Shown here: positions 7,601-25,843 of the stretch, one piece after another
Numbering within the stretch: the first letter of the stretch is position 1
How the letters are laid out: every line of letters begins with the position of its first letter
Source: a virus
Direction: 5' to 3' (one strand)
IMG/VR virus record: IMGVR_UViG_3300020192_000208
Coordinates: 1-29,069 of that record
DNA: 29,069 nucleotides
Position numbers and translations under genes: made by a program
The notes under the pieces: generated by a model
The model's input: only the letters and a program-made list of their open reading frames with translations
Told to the model about the DNA's origin: nothing
Databases searched by the model: none

Positions 7601-9831
7601 GCCGCGATGCTGCAGAATTGCAAAAGCGGATTGCTCTTGTTGACCAGCAAAAGTTTGACGTCATTACTAAAGACGCAGGCGAAAGATACAAGAAGGCCAA
7701 GGGTGACTACGACTTTGACCAGACAATCAACGAACGTAATATTGATTCCTCGTTGCAGCGGACTGGTGCCTTGGCCAACTTCTTCCCAGAGACTAGGACG
7801 CAGAACATCATTGAAGACTATCTCCGCTGGCACCAGAATCAAGGGAGTCGGCTCATACGGAACGCGGTTGAGAGTAACTACTCACAGCAGGTAGAAGAAC
7901 TGCGGGCGCTAGGGAAAAGCTACTCCGAAGATGCGACTTCAAAGTTCTCAGGAACTCTACGCGCTGCTAAGTCTGAGATCACTAATCCCTACGAGGATTA
8001 TATCAAGACCATGCTGGATGTTTCCAAGCGTAGCGAGTATAGCTTTTTCCACCAGGCCAATGAATTTGTAGATGCTCTCGGGACTAGAGCTTACAGGGTG
8101 CTAGCTGATATTACTGGCAAAGCTCAGAAGGGTTTGCTGCCATACACTGAAGCTAATGCTATCATGCAGAGGCATGGCATTGGTGGCATGTACTCTGGCG
8201 GTTTAGATTATTTCACCAGTAACGTACCTAGGGATCGCAGCCTGGTCAAGGAGTTTGTAGCTAAAGCAAACACACTGCTTGCAAACCTAGTGCTGCGTTT
8301 CGACTTTGCTCAGTCTATCATGAACGTAGTCTCTACGCCATTGCTGCTCAGCACTGAGCTTGCGAGTATTAGAAGTCTGGCGGCCAAAGATCCTACAAAC
8401 ATCGGGGCGTTGGCAGAGTTAACTCGCGTAGCAGTTCCAGGTATGCCGGGCCAAAGCATCCCCAGTACTATGAAGTTGTTGCATCGCGCAATAGCAAATT
8501 TCCACGGCCCTGAGAAAACTGCGCTGGTAAAGCGATACTCAGACAATGGTGACATCAAAGATACTCTGGCTCTTTACCACTCTGCTATCAGTGACCTCGG
8601 CGTTAGTCCTAACTTCAAGGTGTTCTCTGATGGAGTCACTGCGGCTGCTGACAAGGTAGCGACACTGACAGGAAATAACTGGGCAGAAGAATTTACTCGG
8701 TTCGTATCTGCTGACGTGATGCGACAACTGACAGAGCCTCTTGTCAAAAGTGGTAGGCTTTCTCTGCAAGAATCTAATGCATATATCAGCACTTTTGTAA
8801 ACCGCGTGCAAGGAAATTACATTTCCAGCCAGCGGCCCGTAGTCTTTCAAGGAGTACTCGGTGGAGCCATTGGTTTGTTTCAGACTTATTCCTTTAACTT
8901 GCTCCAACAGCTCTTGCGGCATGTCGAAAACAAAGATGCCAGAGCAGTTGCAACGATGTTCGGAATGCAATCGGGATTGTTTGGTCTTAACGGAACCCCA
9001 CTATTTGACGCAATCAATACTCATGTCATCGGTACAGCGGCAGTTAACCAAGGACACTACGACGCCTACTCAATTGCGCCTGGACTTCTAGGAAAAGAAG
9101 TAGGAGACTGGCTGATGTATGGCACAGTTTCTGCTATGCCTGGCTTCGGAGATAAGTGGCCAGCACTGTATTCTCGTGGTGATATCAACCCACGGCACAT
9201 GACAATCCTGCCGCTGACCCCTACCGCAGTTCCTGCGATTGATGCTAGTATCCGTGTTGTAAGCAACATCATGGACATTGGTAAGAAGCTAGTAGGCGGT
9301 GCAGATATCAGTGAAACTCTGCTGCAAGGGCTGGAGCATAATGGTATAAACCGCCCGCTTGCAGGACTCGCGCAGGTGGTCGGGCGCCAAAGCACCACTA
9401 GCAAGGGGGCCTTGATATCAGCTTCTAGTGATATGGAACTCATTGGTACTGCGTCTCGCATCCTAGGTGCTAAGCCTATGGATGAAGCTATCGCACTTAA
9501 TAATATGTACCGGCTGAAAGCATACCAAGCGTCTGATCGTGATCGCATGACTGCGCTAGGTGAAGTGGTGAAAACTAAACTCACTAAAGGCGGCACTCCT
9601 ACTGAGGAGGAAATGCTAGAGTTCATGGGAAATTATGCCAAGATTGGTGGACGTGTTGAGAATTTTAATGCCACGCTGCAAAGCTGGATGAAGGATTCTA
9701 ACATTTCTACTGTTGAAAAAATGCGAGCATCCTTTAGGACTACTACGGGCCAGCGCTTAAATGAAATCATGGGCGGTGTCGGACTTCCTGGATATACACC
9801 GGAACCTGCCAGTGGTATAGTGACAGAGTAG
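4699..9831 (+). CDS. Large internal virion (DNA ejection) protein
   Basis: 1710 residues, by far the largest gene in the window. I see no SLT domain, and no enzymatic motif I can name. A Gly/Ala-rich hydrophobic stretch near residues 197-217 (ATGAALGGAIGGG) could insert into a membrane. Long predicted-helical, charged segments dominate the rest. Size, position after the SLT-bearing protein and before the tail spike, and one-base overlap with the preceding stop all fit the large ejected core protein of podoviruses (T7 gp16 is 1318 residues). GGAGG lies nine bases upstream of ATG. The role is inferred from context and length; a giant tail-associated protein is the main alternative. Confidence 0.6.
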   Translation: MGLFSDSLVYAADSAAVQAGDLSFGQKAGASLSGAVISGLGSIYNTGAAAANALGANVEELSTYNTLQRLDDDWATYYKANATAIDVGGFIATSLIPGMAAVKGLNAVRAGEATGAFGRALNFTRTRQAASLERGLAELAVEGGSVFTRINKNKMATLGWGFADQTLQAAFFELGVAVTMKQSPLLADDSWWDIGKFMATGAALGGAIGGGLTALGINKAFKVAVKEVSRRSNDYTALSGLGKLGLDTGDEAIGILDSILRLPTEVLERDKFLELTFPLGSGPVTRRVDLTTVLTNVTRSSTKRAMEEFEIKLREVVGGNKAGVGGVEPETAQAFSQYVLGRYVKLKQANASPSAIREDMGDVLYNLRNVKAVTDEPFYDASDLFYFRKSLTPEEVAKVTSIEDLRDLQVRNTPFGKAEQAYNKPYIFTGTKEQFKAERLAIIGGKGDDAFPTLEAAWKAGFNIAKTPDGALRINQKSPLWKQVQDPVFDARRYLNTRTGAISEDAVLTAADRMPGGKALKVDPGGVTLDMPEGLKRVKMSEGYKAGESIAYATARHAWASKLSDDQLPAIIDAADISLLQRLTLLPPGAKDALQIRLLDGTLVSGEDATRVLLNSKVDGLKLEFSTGPSGSKDIRELAYRYAVSESWLEALIAKEFGASVRSLDELSKGMNRNLEDFLLRENLLATYAKPTQFQYMDDAFAKLPAKQKVKEIVELAGRHGGQFVTGELAYAYRVQAAVRANQNASASVLGAEKHARLIKLNQDAAGLADSLGSGASFLGSSNASYGDTLRLASQDTGKHVHQWIQDSSNDITSAFASIGAKLLSNPRAGAEVGIVTAVLRNSPEKFVRMPSLLNDSNTLIIRELDEFIGDPIKFATKEAEFLAAGRRTRIDVKYQDAMDWLVMHQKLTSERTQKQSVLASARGLVSNKDSAVFYAPPVDTNYFQHFAFVRPVEGRAFSTSEVSMIFGRDAAELQKRIALVDQQKFDVITKDAGERYKKAKGDYDFDQTINERNIDSSLQRTGALANFFPETRTQNIIEDYLRWHQNQGSRLIRNAVESNYSQQVEELRALGKSYSEDATSKFSGTLRAAKSEITNPYEDYIKTMLDVSKRSEYSFFHQANEFVDALGTRAYRVLADITGKAQKGLLPYTEANAIMQRHGIGGMYSGGLDYFTSNVPRDRSLVKEFVAKANTLLANLVLRFDFAQSIMNVVSTPLLLSTELASIRSLAAKDPTNIGALAELTRVAVPGMPGQSIPSTMKLLHRAIANFHGPEKTALVKRYSDNGDIKDTLALYHSAISDLGVSPNFKVFSDGVTAAADKVATLTGNNWAEEFTRFVSADVMRQLTEPLVKSGRLSLQESNAYISTFVNRVQGNYISSQRPVVFQGVLGGAIGLFQTYSFNLLQQLLRHVENKDARAVATMFGMQSGLFGLNGTPLFDAINTHVIGTAAVNQGHYDAYSIAPGLLGKEVGDWLMYGTVSAMPGFGDKWPALYSRGDINPRHMTILPLTPTAVPAIDASIRVVSNIMDIGKKLVGGADISETLLQGLEHNGINRPLAGLAQVVGRQSTTSKGALISASSDMELIGTASRILGAKPMDEAIALNNMYRLKAYQASDRDRMTALGEVVKTKLTKGGTPTEEEMLEFMGNYAKIGGRVENFNATLQSWMKDSNISTVEKMRASFRTTTGQRLNEIMGGVGLPGYTPEPASGIVTE

Positions 9832-9875: not shown

Positions 9876-11315
9876 ATGACTAATCGTACCGCGTATCGTA
9901 ACCAGGGTGGAATGCCAACTTGGCAACAGATTAATGATCCTGGGAAAGCGGATGAGAATTTTTTGCGTTTGGTAAACGGCGTAGTGGTGGATGGGGCTGG
10001 GGATTTAATTACCACCTACGCATCCGGCAAGCTGTCTAAACTGGCAGGCAACCGCAACGAACCGCTCGACATAACTTATGCGAACGGGCGCGTGCAATAC
10101 GTAGCAAATGCGCAGCCGCCGTGGATGTATCTCACCTCGAATGGCCCTGTAAATTTCATGCTGCAAACCGCTATTCGTGGAAGTGGCTTTGGGGTCGGTG
10201 GTGAGATCCATTGCATTAGCACTTTCGACAAGAAGTTTTACAAATACACCGCAGGCGCATGGACTGGCCCCCTATCCGCTGCTATTGACGCATCTGGCGG
10301 GCTTTTCACGCTGATGTATATGGATTCGCGGGGCAACTTGTTTGCAAGCTGGAGCGGATCGTCGAGTAAAGCGCTCTACCGATCTGCTGACGGCGGCGCC
10401 ACGTGGACGACGGTGCTTGGCGCAGCCGATCTGCCGGATACTGATGACCACATCGGGTCGATGGCGGAATCTGACAACGGCTATTTGTTTGCCACAGGCT
10501 ACAACTCGGTAGCTGCTGCGCCCACAGCAGTCAATAAAATCTGGCGCAGCATTGATGGAGGGGCTACCTGGGTCAACATCACCCCGAATCTTGCCTTCCA
10601 GTACCAGCGACACACGCACTCCGTAACTTGGGACATTTATCGCAAATGCCTCTGGCTCGGGGGAGGAGATAGCTCAGGGCAGTTCATTCAAGTTTCTAGC
10701 GACTATGGCAATACGTGGGCATCGTGGACCGCCAGTTTTCAATGCACGGCCATTGTTGCTGACGCTGATTACGTCTACTACTGTAGCGATCTTGCTGGCG
10801 ATCATGGACTTTACCGGGCGCGTGGTGCTACTGTTGCGCAGGTGCTGGCGACAACCCCCCGCCGCGTGGCCAAGATCACCGACATTGCAGGCACTGACGG
10901 CACAGAGTTTGCCTGGTGGGGAGATACTAACGCGCAAGGGCAGGTTTACTTTCCGTACAGCAAGGGGGCTAAAGCTGCGGTGCTAGCTTCCTCTGATCAA
11001 GGCTTGTCGTGGACGGATGTGCTGGACACGCAAGTTTCGGGAACGCTGAATTTTGGGCCTGAGTTTGTACGTGTCAGTAAATACAAGAGCGGTTGGGATG
11101 GTTTCAACATCAGTGCAAGCACCACAGTGCGGTACTCTATCCGGTGGCGCGTCTATCCTTCGGCCATGGAGTGGCTTGTGAATAACGTGAATGGTGATGA
11201 CGATTTCGGAGACGGCATCAGTACTGCGACAAAGACAGTGCCGGAGTTTGGTGTCAAACCTAATGCAGTCGTCAAGTTGTCTAGCAACTACTCTGCAAAT
11301 GCCAGTCTAGGATGA
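9876..11315 (+). CDS. Tail spike/fibre, sialidase-like beta-propeller with four Asp boxes (ends at in-frame UGA)
   Basis: 479 residues up to a UGA at 11313-11315. Four Asp-box (BNR) motifs of the form SxDxGxTW are visible: SADGGATW (170), SIDGGATW (225), SSDYGNTW (274) and SSDQGLSW (372). Such repeats build sialidase-type beta-propellers in glycan-binding or glycan-cleaving proteins, so this is probably the receptor-recognition protein. The first 60 residues may be the virion anchor. AGGAG lies nine bases before ATG. The same frame continues past the UGA for another 240 codons with a plausible C-terminal domain, giving 720 residues if read through. CTAG is scarce here compared with neighbouring genes, suggesting a different origin. 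I cannot tell an enzyme from a binding protein. Confidence 0.72.
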   Translation: MTNRTAYRNQGGMPTWQQINDPGKADENFLRLVNGVVVDGAGDLITTYASGKLSKLAGNRNEPLDITYANGRVQYVANAQPPWMYLTSNGPVNFMLQTAIRGSGFGVGGEIHCISTFDKKFYKYTAGAWTGPLSAAIDASGGLFTLMYMDSRGNLFASWSGSSSKALYRSADGGATWTTVLGAADLPDTDDHIGSMAESDNGYLFATGYNSVAAAPTAVNKIWRSIDGGATWVNITPNLAFQYQRHTHSVTWDIYRKCLWLGGGDSSGQFIQVSSDYGNTWASWTASFQCTAIVADADYVYYCSDLAGDHGLYRARGATVAQVLATTPRRVAKITDIAGTDGTEFAWWGDTNAQGQVYFPYSKGAKAAVLASSDQGLSWTDVLDTQVSGTLNFGPEFVRVSKYKSGWDGFNISASTTVRYSIRWRVYPSAMEWLVNNVNGDDDFGDGISTATKTVPEFGVKPNAVVKLSSNYSANASLG

Positions 11316-11321
11316 AAGGGC

Positions 11322-12038
11322 TTGCTGCTCGACACCAATGGCTACTCGCTCGGAACTGCCGTTTCTGGAGCGGTTGCAGTCAATGAGACGTTCGAGGGCA
11401 CATCGTCTCTTACAGTCACTGCAGCAGCTAGCGGAACGGTCGATCAGGTATCAACGACAAATCCGTTTGCAGGAACCCGCTGCGCTCGTTGTATCACTGC
11501 AGCGTCCGCTGGTAGCACGGCGCTCGTCGTCAAGGCGACGATCATACCCGGCGTCAGTGGTGACACCGTATGGGGTCGAGGCGACTTCCATCTTGCGACG
11601 GCCACGATCACAGCATCGACCATTATTCTGCAAATGCAGGCTGGCGTAAGCGTCATCATTGACACGACGGCGGGAGGTGGGGGATTGTGCGTGCAGACCA
11701 ACGCTGACAGCAAGATCTTCCGGCAGGTGCTGGATGACTATGTTGCATTCCCGCAGGCGCAATACGTCAACGTCAAGTTGGCTGTGTACCTGCATGCAAC
11801 AAAGGGAGAAATACGCCTGTGGCAGAACGGGATACTGGTTCTTTTTGTGAAGGGTGTAAATACGATTGGCACCTTCGTCGGCACTGTACGCATGGGCGTT
11901 ACATCAGCGCAAATCCTAACGATGGACGTTGATAACGTCAAAGCGTCACTCAACGTCGATCCTGATCTTCCGCTGGCGTACATGCTAAACGGTGCCGGGC
12001 AGCTTTTGCTGCGTGAGCTTGAGCGCAGCGAGTATTAA
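11322..12038 (+). CDS. C-terminal lectin-like (LamG/concanavalin-type) domain of tail spike, downstream of in-frame UGA
   Basis: 238 residues if started at TTG 11322, in the same frame as the tail spike and only six bases after its UGA. The C-terminal half is a series of short beta-strand-like segments, including GEIRLWQNGILVL and a closing VRMGVTSAQILTMDVDNVKAS. This pattern resembles LamG/concanavalin-like sugar-binding domains at the ends of phage fibres. AGGA at 11309-11312 lies nine bases before the TTG, so reinitiation of a separate chain is possible. Alternatives are UGA readthrough giving a 720-residue spike, a disabling mutation, or an assembly error. The domain assignment is inference from strand pattern; no catalytic residues are evident. 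Confidence 0.5.
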   Translation: MLLDTNGYSLGTAVSGAVAVNETFEGTSSLTVTAAASGTVDQVSTTNPFAGTRCARCITAASAGSTALVVKATIIPGVSGDTVWGRGDFHLATATITASTIILQMQAGVSVIIDTTAGGGGLCVQTNADSKIFRQVLDDYVAFPQAQYVNVKLAVYLHATKGEIRLWQNGILVLFVKGVNTIGTFVGTVRMGVTSAQILTMDVDNVKASLNVDPDLPLAYMLNGAGQLLLRELERSEY

Positions 12039-12090
12039 TTCCCATCCCCTGCCGGTACACTAGCAACTCTTAGCTAAGACCACAAATAGA

Positions 12091-12116
12091 AAAGCCCTCG
12101 ATGTGAGGGCTTTTTT
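12091..12116. terminator. Bidirectional rho-independent terminator between converging arms
   Basis: Perfect stem AAAGCCCTC / GAGGGCTTT with a five-base loop (GATGT), followed by T on the plus strand and, read on the minus strand, by TTTTC. It lies between the stop of the tail spike (12038) and the stop of the MazG-like gene (12142), exactly where rightward late and leftward early transcription would collide. Confidence 0.9.
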
Positions 12117-12141
12117 ACGTCTGGAGATTTAGTAGCGCTTG

Positions 12142-12966
12142 TTATTCTGTATCTATGTGCTTCGCTTTAAACGCTGCAATAGTGTCGCCGATCTTATCAT
12201 TCCTGCTAATCGCCTGAGCATCAGAGTACTCGAAATCCTTGTAGCGTTTAGCCAGCTTGGCCATGTTAGCATCAAGAATCTGCTGGCGATCAAGCTTCAG
12301 CGCCTGCCGCAAGCCTTCAAGATAATACTCCAAGTCTCCAAGCTCCTCAATAACATTATCCATATTCAGCTCTTTGCCGTAGATTGCATTCTTCTTGATT
12401 GCATCAAGCAACTCGCCAGCCTCACCACTGATTCCAATCACCATGTGAATGAGATCTACTTTGATATCACTGAGATCAAGATTGATTACGTGAGGATCTT
12501 TCTTAGTCTTTCTCACCATTTCGCTATGAGTAATCCTGGCAGGTTTGGGCAGTGCGGGCGTGGTCTGGGTATTTGCTGCAAATCCAAGAGCTTCCCGCAT
12601 GTATGTTTCGCGAGCGATCATCTCAGCAGTTTCCGCGCTTGTCAATCCTGCTGCAAGTTCAATACCTTCTCGGATCTCTGTTTTAATCCTGTTGAGCGCA
12701 GCAAGCTCCGCATCAACAGCAGTCCAAGGCTCTGACCCCGCTCGCGTCAGTTTATTCTTATCTTGTGTCCCTGCTTGTGCGTGATAGTCTTGCATGATTT
12801 TTCCATTGGTAATCCAGTCTGCGAATGCTTTGATTTCTGGCGGCGCATCAGGCCACAGATTGGCGCCACGTTGAATCAACTCCTTGAATGCGGGTACATC
12901 AGGCTGGTCGATAAGCCAGACACTCGCGCTATCTAAGCGACGTATGCTAATTGTGATAGTTGTCAT
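12142..12966 (-). CDS. MazG-like nucleotide pyrophosphohydrolase with extra N-terminal region
   Basis: 274 residues. The C-terminal part carries the MazG/all-alpha NTP-PPase signature: Glu182-x2-Glu185 (in ISGEAGELLDAI) and Glu208-x2-Asp211 (in VIEELGDLEYYL). These residues bind Mg and cleave NTPs to NMP and pyrophosphate; phage versions are linked to nucleotide-pool cleaning or lowering ppGpp. Residues 1-130 are not part of the usual small MazG fold and I do not recognise them. The start overlaps the stop of the upstream ATPase gene by ATGA. It is the last gene of the replication block, just before the convergent terminator. Confidence 0.75.
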   Translation of the reverse strand: MTTITISIRRLDSASVWLIDQPDVPAFKELIQRGANLWPDAPPEIKAFADWITNGKIMQDYHAQAGTQDKNKLTRAGSEPWTAVDAELAALNRIKTEIREGIELAAGLTSAETAEMIARETYMREALGFAANTQTTPALPKPARITHSEMVRKTKKDPHVINLDLSDIKVDLIHMVIGISGEAGELLDAIKKNAIYGKELNMDNVIEELGDLEYYLEGLRQALKLDRQQILDANMAKLAKRYKDFEYSDAQAISRNDKIGDTIAAFKAKHIDTE

Positions 12967-14330
12967 CTCATTTCTTCCAGTAATTTGAAATCAACAAACA
13001 GCGCTTGCCTATTCATCGGGCGTTGCAGTGGCAGAAATCCTGTAACTCCCTTCTTAGAATCTGGTGGCTGTATTTTACCAGATTGCATAAGTCCCTGTAG
13101 GATATCTGTTAGGGCGTCTCTCTTGTCAAGATCGCGAGACACTACCTTCCAGAGATCCTCAAACGTCAGTGCTTTCTTAGCTTCATACAATGCTGTCATC
13201 ACAGCTTGTGTAGCCTCACTATTCTTGCTCTTACCAAACTCGCCCAAGGCTTTGCTCATACCAGCCTCTGCATGTGTGAGCAGTGTGTTTGCCATCAGCA
13301 CATCTTGCATGTCTATGTTGGTGCTGCATCTCATGGCAGTGACAATAAGCAGTAGCTTCATCAGGTGTGAGAATCTCCTAGTAGAGTAATATTTGAACCT
13401 GAAATCTTCTAGCTCCTGCCACGAAGAATAGATCATAACTAGCGCATCTTTGGCGGCCTTAGTTATTGTTGCTTCCCCGCGGACCTCAGCTTTAATCCTT
13501 CCAAGTAACTCGCAGATTCCTTCAGCAAGCTCTGCTGGTGGTTTTGGAGGGAACGCAATTTTTCTGCCACTAGGCTCTCCATGAATGAGAAGCAGGCGTG
13601 ACATGAACCCTTGTCCAATGGATTGAGCAGGAAATGCTTCCTGCAATCCAGTATGGGTATTGCCCCCGAGGAGGGAGATAGTAGGCTGATAGATGGATAC
13701 GCTCTTAGAATTCTTGAGCCGGTACTTATAACTTGCAGACTCATCATCCCAATCCCAGAGGCTACCGAGGAGTGAGAGAAAATCAAGATTTCCGCTACCG
13801 GTGAACTCATTAAATTCATCAGCGACAATAAAGACTTCTCTAGGGTGTCCGTCACCGCTAGTCGCGTTGTCGGTAATCTCAAGATTTCTAAGGACATCTT
13901 CAGATGTAATACTTTCAGACTTAGGAGATCTTCCTCCCGTTCGCCCATTGCTTCTATTTGCATAACTATCTCCTGAGTTGAATTCATTCTCTGGCAAACC
14001 TTCTAGGTCTAGAAGGAACTTTTCTTTCGTCGTCTTTTCCGCACTAAAGAAATCATAGCCACTAACTGCTAACAGTTTCCTGCTCAGCTTAATGGCGCTG
14101 GATTTTCTGGTACCTGGGTTTCCTATAAGCATGACATAGCTGTTAGGAAAGATTCTAGTGGTGCCGTGAGGAAACCAAAACTGCCGGCCAAGCATGGCGC
14201 CAATGCAGCCTAGCAAGCTCCAGCGATGATAGGTTTTCGGGGCCTCCGTGTCTTTGGTGTATTGGAAATACATCGCAAAGAGATCTCCTGGCGGCGGCGT
14301 CGCTGCACGTAGCAATGGAACTACACTCAT
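12963..14330 (-). CDS. DUF3987-type P-loop ATPase (probable replicative helicase)
   Basis: 455 residues. Walker A is GNPGTRKS (70-77, Lys76), Walker B is VFIVADEF (Asp171, Glu172), followed by a sensor-like Asn224 in LLGGNTHTG and an arginine-finger-like GFMSRLLL (Arg245). This motif order and the N-terminal HRWSLLG...GRQFWFP region match the DUF3987 family, common as the helicase part of phage and plasmid primase-helicases. No primase motifs are present; a separate primase was not found in the window. Start and stop overlap its neighbours (DNA polymerase upstream, MazG-like gene downstream) by ATGA, placing it in the core replication operon. The helicase role is inferred from family and context. 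Confidence 0.8.
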   Translation of the reverse strand: MSVVPLLRAATPPPGDLFAMYFQYTKDTEAPKTYHRWSLLGCIGAMLGRQFWFPHGTTRIFPNSYVMLIGNPGTRKSSAIKLSRKLLAVSGYDFFSAEKTTKEKFLLDLEGLPENEFNSGDSYANRSNGRTGGRSPKSESITSEDVLRNLEITDNATSGDGHPREVFIVADEFNEFTGSGNLDFLSLLGSLWDWDDESASYKYRLKNSKSVSIYQPTISLLGGNTHTGLQEAFPAQSIGQGFMSRLLLIHGEPSGRKIAFPPKPPAELAEGICELLGRIKAEVRGEATITKAAKDALVMIYSSWQELEDFRFKYYSTRRFSHLMKLLLIVTAMRCSTNIDMQDVLMANTLLTHAEAGMSKALGEFGKSKNSEATQAVMTALYEAKKALTFEDLWKVVSRDLDKRDALTDILQGLMQSGKIQPPDSKKGVTGFLPLQRPMNRQALFVDFKLLEEMR

Positions 14331-16606
14331 TTGAGTTCGCTCCAGCGAGTCTTTCCAGCACTGATGTCGCTAGGGATAAACATATTTCTCGTGACTCCAT
14401 CGGCGCCCTTGACTGCAACAGTTGTGTTCATTATCCCTGCTATTATCTCCGGTATATCAGATCGTATTTCTTTATACTGAAAGAGGATAGAGTCGTGAAT
14501 CTGCGCTTTAATTCTAACCACACCTCGGAGGGCGCACTCGATAAGTCTCCCATCTTTATAGTAACTATTATATACGGAAGCTCTCCAGACATTGTAAAAC
14601 TCTTCATTGATAATATCAACGGAAAGATTCTGCGGAGGATGCGCGACTGCGGCATTGAGAAGCGGCTTGTTACTTCTGCTTGGCTTGCCAAAGAAAATCC
14701 TAGTCCAGCCTCGCGGAGAAACAATGCGGCCTGTAGTGTTAACCTCTTTAATAATATGGTCATACCAAAGTCCTTTAACTCGGGGGTAGGTTTTCTCGTA
14801 AACATCTAGCATGTATCGGCACACTTGCTTGAGAGAGTACAATGCTGGCAATTTAAGAATGAGCTTAGCATGAGCGACTTTGGCCGGACCCATAGTTGCA
14901 AGCATCACGTTTTCACCCATGTTATAGTTTGCTCCGTGGTTGACACGCTTTGCTAAGTCCCGCAGATCTTTGTCTAACTGCTTGTGCAGGACTTCGTCAT
15001 AGATTTTCTCGTAGGGTACGCCAAAGAAACTGGCAGCATTCCAGGAGTGGTAATCATGCGGCCCTTCAACAAGATCTATTAGGGCAGTCTCTCCAGCAAG
15101 ATACGCAACACACCTTGCCTCTGACTGAGCCTTATCAATCTCTGCAAGTAGCCAGCCTGGATCAGACATGACGCACTGTTTAACAGCGTCGCCCCTGGGC
15201 ACAACTTGGATCGGAAATCCACACCAGTAGTTGGAAGCTCCGCTAGCAAGCCTGCCAGTATCTGTACCTGCGGGGTTAAGTTTGTAATGGAGTCTCCCAT
15301 TCCAGAACTTCTCCGCAACAAAATACGTTGACAGCAGCTTCTTCTCTTTCTTAATCTCTACAAGCTCTGTGAGAATTCTGTTATTCAAGGGATGACTGGC
15401 TTGAGCTTTAAGCATGTTGGCAGCATCAGTGCTTTCAAGATTCTTAAGCCCAAGGACAGTGAAAAGATTCATCACCTGCTTTGGTGAATTCAAATTGAAA
15501 GCAGGAGCTGCGATCATCTTAACAAACTCACGCTCACGGGAGTCTGCATCAATACGCTTTTTCTCAGCAACAATCTTAGCTCGCTCGCTATCCCACTTGA
15601 GGCCCTCTACTTCGCAGTGAAGGCTAGGGAATACTAATGGAAACTCTTTCAGGTAATTCTTAATAGCGTATGGTTCGCAAAGCTCTAGCAGCGCGAGATA
15701 TGCATTAAGAGTAGCCCAACAATCACGAGCATTGTAGCGGTAGTAATCGCTAAGATCACCAGACTTGCCATCATCCTTCCAATAGCGTACTTTTCTGATT
15801 GCATATGCAGTAATGAAATCGAGTCGTTTAGGGTACTCCGACCACATGCTATGGAATAAATGCTGGGTATCATGGAGCCAATTATAGATAGGGCAACACC
15901 AGCGCATAAAATAGAGACTATCATATAAACCATTTTGCATCACCTTAGGTTGTGGGAGATTGTTAAAACGCTGGACCCACGCGTGGAAGAACATGTCTGT
16001 GAATGGAATTACCAGGCACTCTGTAGTATGCGTCTTAGGAAAGTACGCGCAATAGCCTACGCAGTTGATCCTACGATCTGGATCGTCTATCAGTGTCTCA
16101 ATGTCTACGCTGATAAGAATGCTGTCTTGGCGCCAGACTTCGAAGATAGCATCGAGGTTGGCGGGAGTAGCAAGAGTCCAAGTGAACTTGGTTTGCGGAA
16201 AGAAGCTGTCAGGCTTGGTTAGCTTACTGATGAACCGCTTTGCAGCTGGCGTAGCATGCGGCTGCGTTATCAGATTGGCTAGAGGATTGATGAAAACTAC
16301 TGGGATCTTGGCGCCCGGAGTCTCTATCAGTGAGCCTTGGTAATCATCTAGCGTGATGCCGCGCCTGTTGTTCGGCGGTGTGAAATCTGCTTGAGCAAAC
16401 AACAGTTTCTTTAAGAATTCTGCATCCGTACAAACAATGCCAGCAATGCCGCCAGTGCTTTTAGCAACAGTAGATTCTAAATCTGTGATGGTGAGCGGTG
16501 TACGCAGCAGTGATTTCCATGCTACGTTATCGCCTGCTGTGAGGCCCGCTAGTTTATGCTGGTAACTTCCGTCATCTGGAGTACCAAGGTGAAGAAGTGT
16601 TTTCAT
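14327..16606 (-). CDS. Family A DNA polymerase with 3'-5' exonuclease
   Basis: 759 residues. The exonuclease domain has Exo I (ISVDIET, Asp168/Glu170), Exo II (QNGLYDS, Asp229) and Exo III (YNARD, Tyr291/Asp295). The polymerase domain has TDTGRLAS (448-454), motif A (AEIDKAQSEAR, Asp491), motif B (KRVNHGANY, Lys553, His557, Tyr561) and motif C (QIHDSIL, Asp705). Both metal-binding aspartates are present. Two variations from Pol I stand out: His at the Phe762 position of motif B, and HDS instead of HDE in motif C. It should be the main phage replicase. The start has no Shine-Dalgarno, being preceded by ACTGGCCCCC, and a long inverted repeat lies just upstream. Confidence 0.93.
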   Translation of the reverse strand: MKTLLHLGTPDDGSYQHKLAGLTAGDNVAWKSLLRTPLTITDLESTVAKSTGGIAGIVCTDAEFLKKLLFAQADFTPPNNRRGITLDDYQGSLIETPGAKIPVVFINPLANLITQPHATPAAKRFISKLTKPDSFFPQTKFTWTLATPANLDAIFEVWRQDSILISVDIETLIDDPDRRINCVGYCAYFPKTHTTECLVIPFTDMFFHAWVQRFNNLPQPKVMQNGLYDSLYFMRWCCPIYNWLHDTQHLFHSMWSEYPKRLDFITAYAIRKVRYWKDDGKSGDLSDYYRYNARDCWATLNAYLALLELCEPYAIKNYLKEFPLVFPSLHCEVEGLKWDSERAKIVAEKKRIDADSREREFVKMIAAPAFNLNSPKQVMNLFTVLGLKNLESTDAANMLKAQASHPLNNRILTELVEIKKEKKLLSTYFVAEKFWNGRLHYKLNPAGTDTGRLASGASNYWCGFPIQVVPRGDAVKQCVMSDPGWLLAEIDKAQSEARCVAYLAGETALIDLVEGPHDYHSWNAASFFGVPYEKIYDEVLHKQLDKDLRDLAKRVNHGANYNMGENVMLATMGPAKVAHAKLILKLPALYSLKQVCRYMLDVYEKTYPRVKGLWYDHIIKEVNTTGRIVSPRGWTRIFFGKPSRSNKPLLNAAVAHPPQNLSVDIINEEFYNVWRASVYNSYYKDGRLIECALRGVVRIKAQIHDSILFQYKEIRSDIPEIIAGIMNTTVAVKGADGVTRNMFIPSDISAGKTRWSELK

Positions 16607-16834
16607 GGGGGCCAGTAGTTAAAACTATTTGGAGGATGCTGTTGGTTTCCTAACGGCCACTTGTTGCTTTATTCGCAAAGCTCATTGGACTAGCTAGTAC
16701 TTTGAACAGCATCCACCAAATAGAATTGGGGAGAAGGTGAGCAGTTTGAAGTCATGCTCAGGACTGAAGCTAGTAGCAGTGCTGGCGTCACTTCGCCGAG
16801 CTTTTAAGGACTGTGCCAACTGCTACCAACCTAA
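16607..16834 (-). promoter_or_regulatory. Structured leader upstream of the DNA polymerase gene
   Basis: 228 bases without a credible gene, between the SSB-like gene and the polymerase. Its main content is the inverted repeat at 16625-16723. I see no consensus promoter and no ribosome binding site for the polymerase. A 21-codon frame starting with MTSNC lies on the minus strand over one arm of the repeat but lacks a Shine-Dalgarno, so I do not call it a gene. Likely roles are a 5' untranslated control region, a transcript-processing site or part of a replication origin. Confidence 0.5.
16625..16723. repeat. 19-bp inverted repeat with 61-nt spacer
   Basis: Left arm CTATTTGGAGGATGCTGTT (16625-16643) and right arm AACAGCATCCACCAAATAG (16705-16723) are complementary at 18 of 19 positions. 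On the minus-strand transcript the stem is followed by UUUUAAC. The loop itself can form small helices (GCTTT/AAAGC, and the palindrome ACTAGCTAGT), so a branched RNA is possible. The long loop and the AT-rich end of the stem make an ordinary terminator unlikely. Confidence 0.8.
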
Positions 16835-17278
16835 TCAAGCCACCGTGATATTCACTACGTTACCGTAGATCTTATCTGGATCTTCCTTGTCCTTGCGAGT
16901 CTTGACAAGACCAGAAATCTGCACACGCTTGACGTGATCCCGCACCAGTTCCCCGATGTTGGTGCATTCAAAGTGCTCGGAGAACGGCTTCAGGAACTTC
17001 TTCAAGTTACCAACGCCGAACTGGTTGTCCAAGAAGAACGCAGTGCTGAACTTGGTTCCAGGAAGCACTTCAACGCTTGCAGGATCTGCCAGTTCCACTG
17101 TTTCGATCACAGTGAATGAAGCTTCCACTGCTTGCTTGTTGACGATCTCCTTCACGTCAGTCGTGACTTCCAAGACGTAGCTGCCAGCAGGCGGCACTTC
17201 AAAGGAAGGCAAGTCTGCCAGTTGGTCAATGTCCATGCTAAACAGCGTATTGACATCAATTGCTTTATTATCAGCCAT
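16835..17278 (-). CDS. Probable single-stranded-DNA-binding-like protein
   Basis: 147 residues, acidic at the N-terminus, with a body of alternating strand-like segments (SYVLEVTTDVKEIV, VEASFTVIETVEL, TKFSTAFFLD) and a central motif GVGNLKKFLKPFSEHF. The C-terminus (HVKRVQISGLVKTRKD...YGNVVNITVA) reads like a beta-barrel edge. I recall similar phage proteins beside recombination genes being treated as ssDNA-binding or DUF669-like proteins, and here it lies between Sak4/DUF6378 and the polymerase. GAGGATAAT precedes ATG closely. No OB-fold signature is decisive, so the function is inference. A weak promoter candidate lies just upstream. Confidence 0.45.
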   Translation of the reverse strand: MADNKAIDVNTLFSMDIDQLADLPSFEVPPAGSYVLEVTTDVKEIVNKQAVEASFTVIETVELADPASVEVLPGTKFSTAFFLDNQFGVGNLKKFLKPFSEHFECTNIGELVRDHVKRVQISGLVKTRKDKEDPDKIYGNVVNITVA

Positions 17279-17288
17279 ATTATCCTCG

Positions 17289-17317
17289 TATATATGAGAA
17301 GTTTAAGAACAGTTCAA
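17289..17317 (-). promoter_or_regulatory. Weak sigma-70-like promoter candidate
   Basis: On the minus strand TTGAAC (17317-17312), 17-base spacer, TATATA (17294-17289). Each box matches consensus at four of six positions. It would start transcription just before the SSB-like gene with a very short leader. Much weaker than the other three promoters listed; it may be chance. Confidence 0.3.
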
Positions 17318-17337
17318 TTGCGACCGCATTGCGGCTA

Positions 17338-17670
17338 TCAGGGCAACGCCCTAGAATCAATGATAGCGCCAGCCAGTTCTGGTTTCAGCTGGCGCTCATC
17401 TTGCAGAATAGAGTAGCAGCCAGCATAGCCTGCTACATCGAGAATAGAATCCTTGTGGTCAGGACTCTTGGAAAGCCTTGCCATCTTCACAGCAATCATG
17501 CAGAGTGCTACCAGCTCCGGTGTGATCCTCGCAGTCGGAGCAAGCTGCGGCGCCAAGATACCTTGCCACAGCATTGCAATCTGGGAAAAGTTCTGCAGCT
17601 TATCGCCGTAGTCTTGCTGGCGATCTCCTGTGATCGTAGCCTGCGCTCGCAGAAGCATGGATTCTCTCAT
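17338..17670 (-). CDS. DUF6378-like phage protein
   Basis: 110 residues, all-helical in appearance. The pattern ITGDRQQDYGDKLQNFSQIAMLW, then LVALCMIAVKMARL, then KDSILDVAGYAG matches what I know as the DUF6378 family, a common small phage protein of uncertain biochemical role whose helices recall MazG-type folds. GGAG lies eight bases before ATG, and the start overlaps the stop of the Sak4-like gene by ATGA. Encoded between recombination and replication proteins, it may act in nucleotide metabolism, but no catalytic residues can be assigned. The family match is from memory. Confidence 0.6.
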   Translation of the reverse strand: MRESMLLRAQATITGDRQQDYGDKLQNFSQIAMLWQGILAPQLAPTARITPELVALCMIAVKMARLSKSPDHKDSILDVAGYAGCYSILQDERQLKPELAGAIIDSRALP

Positions 17671-18461
17671 TTGAATAACTCCAGTAGTGATGGCGTCTCC
17701 GCCGTTTCAAGAACCTTGCCAGCCCTTGAGCCAAGAACAATGCTGTTGCTGTAGGTAGTGCTACTAGCTGCCTTGTGCTTCTTATTGACGAGTTCGCAAT
17801 AAACTACGTCGTCAAAATACTTTGCAAATGTCTTGGAGAATTGCGAGGTACCGCCAATTGGTACTATCTTCTTCTTGCCATCCTCCATTTCAACCAGCTG
17901 CTCGTGGCTAATAACTACTACGTTGAAGGGAGCCTGCTGGAGAATCGAAAAGATCCTATCAAGGACACGACCCTGCTTGGCATAGTCATCCCAGTCTGGC
18001 TTCTTATCGTAATTATCTTTGAGGATAATGTCCCGCTGGATGTAGTTCATAATAGACATGGCCAACTGTGAGGCGCTGTCTATTACCATAACATCCTGGT
18101 TGGTGAATTCTCCTACGTTGATAGGCGAGCTAGCAGTAGGATCTGCTTTGCACTTCACGCAATTCACAGTGCCATGGGCATGGCAGATTTGGTGAGTGCC
18201 GCCCTTGATGACACGCAGTAACGTGTCAACAGCAACTGGAAACGTCTGCGTATCTGGGATGTGGAAGTAATTAATATTGTCCAACCACTCCTTCTTAACC
18301 CTGGGAGAATTGAATAGCGTCTTGATGCCATCCTCAAGATCAAACCAGTGGAGCTTGTAGCTCTGCGACAGCTGACCTACCAGATCAGTCTTGCCTGTCT
18401 TGGGACCACCATAAACTAGGATCTTCCTAGAGAGTGATGGCTTGTAGTCTGAGAGTTTCAT
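17667..18461 (-). CDS. Sak4-like RecA-fold ATPase (recombinase), with Cys/His insertion
   Basis: 264 residues. Walker A is YGGPKTGKT (17-25, Lys24) and Walker B is DVMVIDSA (Asp128), with the later VVVISHEQ strand typical of RecA-like folds (AAA_24/Sak4 group). Sak4 proteins are minimal recombinases that promote single-strand annealing and exchange together with an SSB; both a Cas4-like nuclease and an SSB-like gene flank it here. Residues 93-104 hold CHAHGTVNCVKC, a likely zinc knuckle inserted between the Walker motifs. AGGGG lies upstream of ATG. It is first after a strong promoter (18507-18534), so it heads the replication operon. Confidence 0.78.
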   Translation of the reverse strand: MKLSDYKPSLSRKILVYGGPKTGKTDLVGQLSQSYKLHWFDLEDGIKTLFNSPRVKKEWLDNINYFHIPDTQTFPVAVDTLLRVIKGGTHQICHAHGTVNCVKCKADPTASSPINVGEFTNQDVMVIDSASQLAMSIMNYIQRDIILKDNYDKKPDWDDYAKQGRVLDRIFSILQQAPFNVVVISHEQLVEMEDGKKKIVPIGGTSQFSKTFAKYFDDVVYCELVNKKHKAASSTTYSNSIVLGSRAGKVLETAETPSLLELFK

Positions 18462-18506
18462 GGCTTGCCCCTAGATGAATGTATAAATTTTTGCGACAGA
18501 ATAAAC

Positions 18507-18534
18507 AGTATACACGAAGCTATTCCTTTGTCAA
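18507..18534 (-). promoter_or_regulatory. Strong sigma-70 promoter for the replication operon
   Basis: On the minus strand TTGACA (18534-18529), 16-base spacer, TATACT (18512-18507). The -35 box is perfect and the -10 box matches five of six. It lies in the 101-base gap after the nuclease stop and before the Sak4-like gene. The bases around the -35 box (CGGGG TTGACAAAGG) recur at the promoter near 28804. Confidence 0.85.
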
Positions 18535-18562
18535 CCCCGAATTTCGTTTATTGTTAGGGAGT

Positions 18563-19705
18563 TTATGACTTCTCCCGCTGGGCTGCTACCAATTCGGCCA
18601 GCGTAAACGTGTAGTCTACTATCGGAAAATCTGCCAGTGTTTGCAGCTTTGGCGGCACGACTCCTGGAAACAGGGAGGAGTTGCGCATCTGGCAAGTGCC
18701 ATACCATTCGCACTTACGGCCCCACTTGTTAACGCAAGAGTCTCCGCGCTTAGGATAAAACTCCAATTCTTCATACTTTGCAAGTACTGAATGTGTAATC
18801 AGTAGATCCTGCAACCACTCCGCCCGCTGTGCGCGGTTCTTGGGGAATGGCATCAATGTGAACTCACGAGTCTTACTGGAGTAGACAATGTAGAAGACTT
18901 CGTAGTCACTACCTGGTAGTCCGAGTTCTTTAGAGATAGCATCCACAACAACACTATAGCCAAGAGCCTGATACGAATTAGCATAAGCCGCCTCATCAAC
19001 AGTTTCTAACCCAGTAGTCTTACCCTCCCACACTGCCAGCCTCTTGCTCTCTTTGTGCTGCAAGATTGTATCAATGTGGCCCACATGGAAGTACCCGTTA
19101 GCAGTGTCTACTGCAAAAGATAGCTCAACAGCAGGCTTGCCGTTCGGTAGAGTCAGCACTTCCCACTCGCTGAGATGCTGCTGGTAGAACCAAGCAAACT
19201 TCTCGACAGCGAGTAACGCCCAGTGGATACTCTTACCTGCGGGCTTACCACTCTTGTCAGTTTTCTCTTGGTCGTAGGGTGCTCTCCATGCTGTGAACGC
19301 AGCAAACTGCGCAGCAACTAAGCTACCTGTTGCTGCGTAAGTTTGAATGCCTGCGCCAACTGCGTGGCCATAAGCAAAATCGTAATTGACTACGACTGTT
19401 GAAGGCCCCGGTAGATCTACATCCTTGGCGCCCGAAGAAGCTCTAAGCATGCCCAGTTCGTAACGCCTTGGACACTCATGCAGCCCTTGCAGCTTAGAGT
19501 TGCTAGTCACGTTTCCATGAGCTACAATTTTCCTGTAGGCTTTATCGGAGGTATTCCCAGAGATGCTTGTAGCCGTGCCAATCGCGTTAGCTGTGGGACT
19601 GGCGCTGAAGAAATCTGCTGTGCCAGTGTCGGCCCCAGAAAAGATTTCATCAAGTCGATTGAAGATTGCAGTTCTTGCTGCGTCACTAGTGTTGGAGGTA
19701 GCCAT
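18563..19705 (-). CDS. Cas4/RecB-like PD-(D/E)XK nuclease with Fe-S cluster cysteines
   Basis: 380 residues. The PD-(D/E)XK core is visible: GHIDTI (Asp212), AVWEGKTT (Glu227-x-Lys229) and YANSYQALGY (Gln246, Tyr250), with an upstream His in AYGHAVG (114). One cysteine in ECPRRYELG (Cys78) and three near the C-terminus (Cys324, Cys332, Cys338 in CVNKWGRKCEWYGTC) fit the Fe-S cluster arrangement of Cas4 and AddB nucleases. It probably resects DNA ends for the Sak4/SSB pathway. No CRISPR array is present, so a Cas adaptation role is unlikely. The start at 19705 has only a weak Shine-Dalgarno and lies ten bases after the preceding stop. The first 60 residues are low complexity, so a later start is possible. 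Confidence 0.83.
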   Translation of the reverse strand: MATSNTSDAARTAIFNRLDEIFSGADTGTADFFSASPTANAIGTATSISGNTSDKAYRKIVAHGNVTSNSKLQGLHECPRRYELGMLRASSGAKDVDLPGPSTVVVNYDFAYGHAVGAGIQTYAATGSLVAAQFAAFTAWRAPYDQEKTDKSGKPAGKSIHWALLAVEKFAWFYQQHLSEWEVLTLPNGKPAVELSFAVDTANGYFHVGHIDTILQHKESKRLAVWEGKTTGLETVDEAAYANSYQALGYSVVVDAISKELGLPGSDYEVFYIVYSSKTREFTLMPFPKNRAQRAEWLQDLLITHSVLAKYEELEFYPKRGDSCVNKWGRKCEWYGTCQMRNSSLFPGVVPPKLQTLADFPIVDYTFTLAELVAAQREKS

Positions 19706-19715
19706 GATGAGTGTA

Positions 19716-20135
19716 CTAGCTCAAGTGTTGCACGGTAGATCTGGAAATATTCCTTCGGTCTACTCCATCGCTTGCAGGAGTCACAGCTGTAAGTAAGCCC
19801 ACCAGTTGTAGCTGGAGATTTGCAATAGAAGCAAAGATTTCCGCAAGCCTCGCCGTAAGTTCTATCCCAGAACTCGTGGGGGAACTGACCAACAGGTCGT
19901 AAGAGATTCCAGCACACTTCAAGTGCAGGACATTGGTTGTATCCAGTAACTCCTTCAAGTCTGAAATCCCACGGGAACTGCAAACTTCTTGCACGTACTG
20001 CGTGGGCGTAACTTGTGGCCATCGGTATCCTCGCTCAGTTGGCTGGTATTTTACTGGGGTCTCAGTGACTGGCGTAGGGTCTTGTATGCTTAGTTTTTGT
20101 GCGCTCATTGTTCCACCTGTATTTGTATTTGTCAT
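19716..20135 (-). CDS. Hypothetical protein (139 aa), overlapped out of frame by a zinc-ribbon-like frame
   Basis: 139 residues, not recognised. The start is well supported: GGAG seven bases before ATG, with the preceding gene's stop overlapping as ATGA. It ends ten bases before the nuclease start, which is tidy operon geometry. The N-terminal 38 residues are polar; the rest contains a leucine/alanine-rich helix (LTARLAEIFASIANLQLQ). Codons favour purine at the first position, as in coding DNA. A second frame with its own AGGA starts inside it at 20022 and encodes a CxxC...CxxC pattern; both cannot easily be conserved, and I favour this one. Confidence 0.55.
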   Translation of the reverse strand: MTNTNTGGTMSAQKLSIQDPTPVTETPVKYQPTERGYRWPQVTPTQYVQEVCSSRGISDLKELLDTTNVLHLKCAGISYDLLVSSPTSSGIELTARLAEIFASIANLQLQLVGLLTAVTPASDGVDRRNISRSTVQHLS

Positions 20136-20410
20136 TTTAATTCTCCCACTGTTGCATTCTCTATCAAGGCGTCTAAGAAGTTTGCACCGCCCAGACGTAT
20201 AAATGTAGCGTGTTGCTCAGGTGTAAATCTAGCACAGGTTTGCACACGCTTAGCAGCGCCAGCAGGTCTAGGCATCTTTGCTAGCTTGTCTATCTCTTTA
20301 CGGAGCCACTCAGATCCGCCTAAGTCTTTCAACTTATCCCGGTTAGCTGGCCTAATAGTCAGCGTAACTCGGTACACTGGATAGCTCGGATAATTTAATC
20401 GTGGCATCAT
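20132..20410 (-). CDS. Small protein with a duplicated LGG helix motif (possible DNA-binding)
   Basis: 92 residues containing two tandem copies of one motif. Copy one is NRDKLKDLGGSEWLRKEIDKL (from about residue 23), and copy two is TPEQHATFIRLGGANFLDALI (from about residue 64). Single copies of the form TPEQHxxFxxLGGxxWLRxxID occur in many small bacterial and phage proteins, which I recall as ribbon-helix-helix-like or uncharacterised. A fused dimer binding DNA is a reasonable guess, perhaps regulating this gene cluster. It overlaps both neighbours by ATGA. Function is not established. Confidence 0.6.
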   Translation of the reverse strand: MMPRLNYPSYPVYRVTLTIRPANRDKLKDLGGSEWLRKEIDKLAKMPRPAGAAKRVQTCARFTPEQHATFIRLGGANFLDALIENATVGELK

Positions 20411-20703
20411 AAGTCTCCCATGTTGAGGCCAGTAGACTTCTTGCTTGCAGAAGCCTTACCAGCTTTGCCTGTCATAGAGCCGACAAGCACGGTGTTAGTG
20501 ATAAGCTGCTGCGCTTCCATGAGCTTGGAGATTTGCTCCACACTAAGCAAATGCACTAGCTCTTCGTGCGAGATCAGCAGCTTGTGCATCTCTCCTACGT
20601 GGCTCTTCATTGCAGGGTCTTGCGTAAGCAGTGCAGTCTCAAGAAGGTGCAGGCGCTGGAGGATCGCATCCATCTGCGGACTTTGGATAGTGTCAGTAGT
20701 CAT
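20407..20703 (-). CDS. Hypothetical helical protein (98 aa)
   Basis: 98 residues, not recognised. A long amphipathic helical part (residues 10-65, rich in Leu, His, Glu and Met) precedes a flexible basic C-terminus with several lysines (KAGKASASKKS). Such a layout could suit a small nucleic-acid or partner-binding protein, but there is no specific motif. The stop overlaps the next start as ATGA. AGGGG lies eleven bases before ATG, rather far. It belongs to the chain of coupled small genes between 22501 and 18563. Confidence 0.6.
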   Translation of the reverse strand: MTTDTIQSPQMDAILQRLHLLETALLTQDPAMKSHVGEMHKLLISHEELVHLLSVEQISKLMEAQQLITNTVLVGSMTGKAGKASASKKSTGLNMGDL

Positions 20704-20709
20704 GGCTTG

Positions 20710-20979
20710 TTATACCCCTGGTTGCCCAGTAAGCCTCCGCTGTAACCGGATGCCTATGAGTTTAGCCTGATACGGACTGACTGCAACCACTGGCATCCAA
20801 GCATCCAAGTCAGGCGTAGTAGATGCCTGAACCTCAGTAGCATTTACTACGTACACATCCCACGGCTGAATGAGAATGTAATGTGTCACTCGCGGTGGCA
20901 GCTTGCTGCGACTACGCTTCGCTGGCTTAGCTGCCTCGCCTGCCATCTCATTGGCAAGCTGTTCTGATAGACTGGTCAT
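20710..20979 (-). CDS. Hypothetical protein (89 aa)
   Basis: 89 residues from MTSLSEQLAN. This start is preferred over one 34 codons earlier because GGAG lies seven bases before it and the upstream segment overlaps nothing conserved. An acidic/amphipathic N-terminus is followed by a basic patch (KPAKRSRSKLPPR) and then a strand-rich part (THYILIQPWDVYVVNATEVQ). The basic patch could contact nucleic acid; no family is recognised. The next gene starts seven bases after its stop. Confidence 0.6.
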   Translation of the reverse strand: MTSLSEQLANEMAGEAAKPAKRSRSKLPPRVTHYILIQPWDVYVVNATEVQASTTPDLDAWMPVVAVSPYQAKLIGIRLQRRLTGQPGV

Positions 20980-21016
20980 AATAGTCTCCACAAAAAGAGT
21001 CACCGGAACTGCCGGC

Positions 21017-21448
21017 TCAGTGTAACGGCCCGAGGCCACGCTTCTTCCTAAGCAGATCAAGATAGATCTGGCAGATTTCATCTACTTTGCCGCTGTCAAA
21101 TTGCACTCGCACTTCCAAGCCTGCGTTCATAATAGCAGCAAAGTCCTCAGGCTTGTGCGCCATAGCCCAGCCTGCTAGCGGCCACAGCTCAGGCCACTGT
21201 TCGTAGAGTTCTCGCCGCAAAGCATTATAGCTTTCTGGAAACATCATAATCTTCTGATCGAAGTTTTTACTTTTCGAATCAGTAATATCATGCTGCACAG
21301 CGTCTGAAGCTACTGGAGTTACAATCATCTGCTTAATAGCAGCGACTTCGGCGCCGGACTGGTCTAGCAGTCGCGTAGCTTGCTTGTCCAGATTAGGTGC
21401 CAGGTGATGCACTTGCGGTGGTTTCTTGTTGTCAGTAGGCTTAGTCAT
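21017..21448 (-). CDS. Hypothetical protein (143 aa)
   Basis: 143 residues, not recognised. The N-terminal MTKPTDN is repeated almost base for base at 21629-21648 within the neighbouring gene. The central and C-terminal parts look globular and aromatic (ALRRELYEQWPELWPLAGWAMAHKPEDFAAIMNA), ending KVDEICQIYLDLLRKKRGLG. GAGGGACGAC precedes ATG and the start overlaps the previous stop as ATGA. No enzymatic or binding motif is visible. Confidence 0.65.
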   Translation of the reverse strand: MTKPTDNKKPPQVHHLAPNLDKQATRLLDQSGAEVAAIKQMIVTPVASDAVQHDITDSKSKNFDQKIMMFPESYNALRRELYEQWPELWPLAGWAMAHKPEDFAAIMNAGLEVRVQFDSGKVDEICQIYLDLLRKKRGLGPLH

Positions 21449-21744
21449 GTCGTCCCTCTTGCAGCGTCGATAGCTGCGTCAAGTGTCTCCTGCGCCTGCT
21501 CCTTGCTGTTGATCCCGATGTACGGCACCAAAAACATTTCAACCAGTATGTGCGTTGGATTGAAGTCGCGCAGATAGATGTAACGCTCCGCATTAGCCCG
21601 CAGTGATGCTACCTCAGCGTCGTTAGTATTATCAGTAGGCTTAGTCATAACCTGTTCCTTGCCGTGTTTGTGGGAAGCAAGTTGTACAGCAGGCCAGACA
21701 ACAATCCCAGTGTAACGCTCCGGGTCTTTAGTATTATCAGACAT
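21445..21744 (-). CDS. Hypothetical protein (99 aa), possibly two fused small genes
   Basis: 99 residues from MSDNTKDPERYTG, with AAGGA upstream. A second start with equally good AAGGA (MTKPTDNTND, 21648) lies in frame 32 codons later and is a near copy of the start of the downstream gene. The C-terminal part (RANAERYIYLRDFNPTHILV...LDAAIDAARG) resembles a common small phage protein ending in DAAIDAA, of unknown role. The first 32 residues look like a remnant of another small gene joined in frame. Which start dominates cannot be read from the sequence. Confidence 0.6.
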   Translation of the reverse strand: MSDNTKDPERYTGIVVWPAVQLASHKHGKEQVMTKPTDNTNDAEVASLRANAERYIYLRDFNPTHILVEMFLVPYIGINSKEQAQETLDAAIDAARGTT

Positions 21745-25825: not shown

Positions 25826-25843
25826 CGGTTAACCGTATCGGTT
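25826..25843. promoter_or_regulatory. Operator-like CGGTT inverted repeats
   Basis: A perfect palindrome CGGTTAACCG (25826-25835) shares a half with AACCG-TAT-CGGTT (25831-25843), giving three CGGTT half-sites in alternating orientation within 18 bases. It lies between the zinc-ribbon gene's stop and the 398-residue gene's ribosome site. A repressor site or small RNA hairpin is possible; no promoter was found beside it. Confidence 0.35.

Follow-up and report, generated by a model that had tools for sequence, protein, structure and literature searches.

The window analysed here, the whole 29,069-base stretch of IMG/VR virus record IMGVR_UViG_3300020192_000208, is an environmental phage contig with a late gene that is interrupted by an in-frame UGA stop codon. 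The plus strand carries part of a late operon, which includes an SLT-domain protein and a 1710-aa (amino acid) ejection-type protein, and the minus strand carries, convergent to the late operon, replication genes that include that of a family A DNA polymerase. The interrupted gene is the final one in the late operon and is located at the convergent junction, after the ejection-type gene. Its upstream open reading frame (ORF; 9876–11315, plus strand) has an ATG start, preceded by a good ribosome-binding site (AGGAG), and encodes 479 aa. The frame stops at UGA 11313–11315, in the context CUA GGA UGA AAG GGC, and then continues on the plus strand as a same-frame extension of 240 codons (11316–12038) that ends in a TAA at 12036–12038. 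The initial annotation had described this arrangement and a long form of 720 residues, and both were confirmed, with the UGA counted as one residue. A terminator-like hairpin, AAAAGCCCTC-loop-GAGGGCTTTT, which is T-rich on both strands, lies at the convergent junction just 3' of the extension (12090–12114), and the extension therefore appears to be inside the late transcription unit. The two parts are probably one continuous gene of ~720 codons, in which the UGA either arose recently by nonsense substitution or reflects a one-base error of the consensus.

The extension is in frame with the upstream ORF and is genuinely coding. The chance of a 240-codon open frame is ~5.5e-5 under the base composition of the extension and ~4e-8 at the stop rate of the wrong frames in this phage's genes. 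Codon log-odds trained on the other genes of the window are alike on the two sides of the stop, with +0.153 bits/codon 5' and +0.135 bits/codon 3' of the UGA, and they are negative in all other frames of both strands. These values bear out the view of the initial annotation that the frame is not open by chance. One stop is the only lesion in the 720 codons, as the extension features no further stop or frameshift, and the first in-frame ATG of the extension is located at 11634, 106 codons in. Long frames that stay open beyond a stop are not unusual as such in phages, since neighbouring genes often share a frame. Among the long ORFs of related loci (described below), 37 of 682 are followed, after one stop, by a second long ORF in the same frame, mostly with an early Met. 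Two minus-strand stops in the window, at 25843 and 28095, are likewise followed by same-frame open stretches of 410 and 647 codons, as the following gene is by chance in that frame.

The N-terminal part features four Asp boxes (SxDxGxxW) at residues 170, 225, 274, and 372, which together span residues 170–379, and it has weak Sortilin/BNR (Pfam) and glycosylhydrolase-type matches that fall below the curated cut-offs. This part is probably an Asp-box (BNR) beta-propeller. The extension has no match above chance in Pfam, PHROGs, or NCBIfam, and neither part matches a tail, spike, fibre, receptor-binding, or lectin family or any PHROG. The gene had been called a tail spike and the extension lectin-like; neither name was established by these searches, and both are guesses because the upstream matches are weak and below cut-off and the extension has none. 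A Pfam ETX_MTX2 match (E 0.064) that covers 38 residues of the extension is below the cut-off and at chance level and was discarded. A single beta-helix-like unit was suspected at residues ~432–500, across the UGA, but it has no profile-search support and is not claimed; a motif search for this type of unit found nothing comparable in the related loci. AlphaFold2 single-sequence models of the read-through form and of residues 425–720 have a pLDDT of 31, which is too low to use. The product is probably a phage surface protein, either an accessory adhesin or an enzyme.

Judged by its shared polymerase, ejection-type protein, and gene order, the phage is a podovirus related to the Fredfastierviridae. 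Matches of the 1710-aa protein and the polymerase, with ~25–34% identity, are to Pseudomonas phages of the 119X/PaP2 type (Fredfastierviridae, genus Jamesmcgillvirus) and also to Polaromonas phage Tiera, Aeromonas phage P5, and EBPR podovirus 3, and the gene order is common to the window and these relatives where the annotation was read. The Fredfastierviridae (119X, PaP2, Neko), Tiera, and P5 share with the window the large ejection-type protein, the convergent junction, and replication genes with a primase and a DNA polymerase; however, the polymerases are ~30–34% identical over most of their length, and none of these phages carries the interrupted gene at the junction. An alignment of the polymerase was used to retrieve 80 IMG/VR loci with related polymerases for comparison. 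The closest of these, L002, is the only near-identical contig (98.9% DNA identity), but it covers only window positions 14243–21465 and ends before the interrupted gene. Over these 7,223 bases L002 and the window have 82 differences, of which 67 are transitions and none is an indel, and the coding differences comprise 46 synonymous changes and 26 that are not.

The junction after the ejection-type gene differs among the related loci. L003, L005, and L006, with polymerase identities of 68–72%, have no late-strand gene at this position. The junction of L004 (13631–15025) features a 186-aa late-strand gene, and that of L010 (13386–17353) carries several late-strand genes, one of which is 545 aa. 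The late-strand ORFs of L059 (in 11111–13256) and L060 (in 13895–16319) share an N-terminus, with 50% over 68 aligned positions, and have then diverged. By these comparisons the junction looks like a variable accessory site, and it also looks like a site at which accessory virion or adhesin genes are swapped. If so, a role of the product as an adhesin, which we infer, would be plausible and its truncation may be tolerable. Additionally, loss of the gene is probably tolerated, since close relatives carry no late-strand genes or unrelated ones at the junction.

Homologues of either half of the gene were not found by tblastn in 50,697 phage records (E up to 10) and 72,556 plasmid records, nor in the 80 related loci. 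Pattern scans with protein pieces (IMG/VR, 5; genome contigs, 2), by which close copies are detectable and distant ones are not, also found no homologue of either half.

Several lines of evidence argue for a continuous gene whose UGA is a recent nonsense mutation or an error in the consensus, which the initial annotation had mentioned as the plain alternative and which is now the favoured reading. The coding signal is equal 5' and 3' of the UGA, no alternative frame is open or coding, the UGA is the sole lesion in the gene, and no RNA structure that would stimulate readthrough was found. The extension has no early ATG, whereas most same-frame neighbour genes of the related loci have an early Met. 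The position at the junction suggests that loss is tolerated, and such lesions are documented in spontaneous phage mutants, in which nonsense mutations and gene-splitting stops occur in phage genes that include tail-fibre genes (PMC6445280). The UGA would be either a nonsense mutation carried by the phage population that was sampled or a one-base error in the consensus of the contig, and we infer that the ancestral gene was continuous. If the UGA is real, the main product would be a truncated protein of 479 residues, and full-length protein would be made only through background misreading of UGA by the host, without a dedicated signal.

Some observations weigh against this interpretation. An uninterrupted homologue, which would show that the continuous gene is ancestral, was not found in the searches described above, and the further decay that is expected beside a long-established nonsense codon is not seen. 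Consensus errors also look rare in contigs of this type, as the polymerase codons of 81 loci contain 0 stops in 58,732 codons and one apparent frameshift, and the comparison of the window with L002 reveals no indel or stop change over 7,223 bases. This contig quality makes a consensus error less likely, and a real nonsense mutation is slightly likelier than an error. The clearest lesion of the frameshift type in the 81 polymerase loci is found in L055 at ~8859–8861, where the polymerase match splits into two frames through an apparent frameshift or an assembly error.

The initial annotation proposed that the gene may make two spike forms, either by readthrough or by restart, and two functional forms were not supported. 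No readthrough signal was found, and the restart site is weak, with a moderate Shine-Dalgarno sequence. A general form of this proposal is unlikely, namely that a double-stranded DNA (dsDNA) phage retains a leaky UGA in the gene of an accessory adhesin, that readthrough or restart adds a further C-terminal domain to a minority of the copies, and that one gene thereby yields two products that bind differently. With functional readthrough, most copies would be 479 aa and a minority would be extended to 720 aa with Trp at the UGA; a small number of long copies with the additional C-terminal domain would then be present in virions, as is the case for Qbeta A1. UGA leaks more than the other stop codons and is decoded chiefly as Trp in Escherichia coli (E. 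coli) (PMC11126739), a test UGA gave ~12% readthrough in E. coli (PMC9481147), and the extension is intact and coding. The final stop is a TAA followed by T, whereas the internal UGA is followed by A. However, passive UGA readthrough varies by host and was only 0.04–0.08% in two Pseudomonas species (PMC9481147); Pseudomonas is the host genus of several relatives. In the E. coli study a G at the +4 position promotes readthrough and a T protects against it (PMC11126739), and by this measure the A found here is neutral. The RNA that surrounds the UGA folds no better than shuffled sequences (z +1.2), UGA is an ordinary stop in 13 of the 25 other predicted genes, and the phages, the plasmids, the IMG/VR and genome scans, and the 80 related loci yielded no homologue that conserves the UGA. 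Functional readthrough is unlikely.

Restart of translation is likewise an unlikely explanation, although the site has a suitable layout. Ribosomes that end at the UGA would restart at a TTG (11322–11324, plus strand) with the aid of an AGGA (11309–11312), giving a second protein of 238 residues that may assemble with the first. The positions given for this site in the initial annotation are correct. The AGGA lies nine bases 5' of the TTG and the TTG lies six bases 3' of the stop, which is typical of translational coupling, and the count of 37 in 682 given above shows that adjacent genes often share a frame among phages of this group. However, TTG starts are rare, with ATG used by 24 of the 28 predicted genes. 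At −4.0 kcal/mol, the Shine-Dalgarno duplex is less stable than those of 19 of the 28 predicted gene starts and is equalled or exceeded by 17% of internal start-like codons, and the late position of the first in-frame ATG in the extension also stands against a separate C-terminal protein. A strong Shine-Dalgarno-like run (GGGAGGTGGGGG; window 11660–11693, duplex ~−11 kcal/mol) is found inside the extension, 5' of an in-frame TTG at 11685 and GTG at 11691; it may be incidental because it also encodes a glycine run. A different explanation, a general reassignment of UGA to an amino acid in the phage or its host, would account for one in-frame UGA within a coding region, but it is rejected as next to impossible. 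The 13 predicted genes that end at TGA indicate that this phage uses the standard code, and the named relatives infect Pseudomonas, Aeromonas, and Polaromonas, all of which use the standard code.

As it stands, the case is one interrupted accessory gene in one contig, with a type of lesion that is already known, and its clearest value is that it marks a variable gene site at the late-operon end of these podoviruses. If the stop were conserved and leaky, the gene would parallel Qbeta A1 in a DNA phage and would offer a simple route to two adhesin forms. Qbeta A1 is made by Trp misincorporation at ~1 in 15 (PMC8067240), and the Qbeta coat/A1 system of the leviviruses resembles the present gene in that a UGA is followed by a long in-frame coding extension of a virion-type gene. 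The Qbeta extension, however, is expressed and known from virions, whereas the extension described here is predicted from sequence; additionally, this phage has a dsDNA genome, its protein is no coat protein, and no conserved stop was found in the searches described above. The other comparison is with the host-range mutants of kayvirus 812, whose lesions were seen against a sequenced parent, while the present gene has no known parent or homologue. The two cases are alike in featuring genes that are interrupted by nonsense codons, and a deletion also splits the tail-fibre gene of 812 (PMC6445280).
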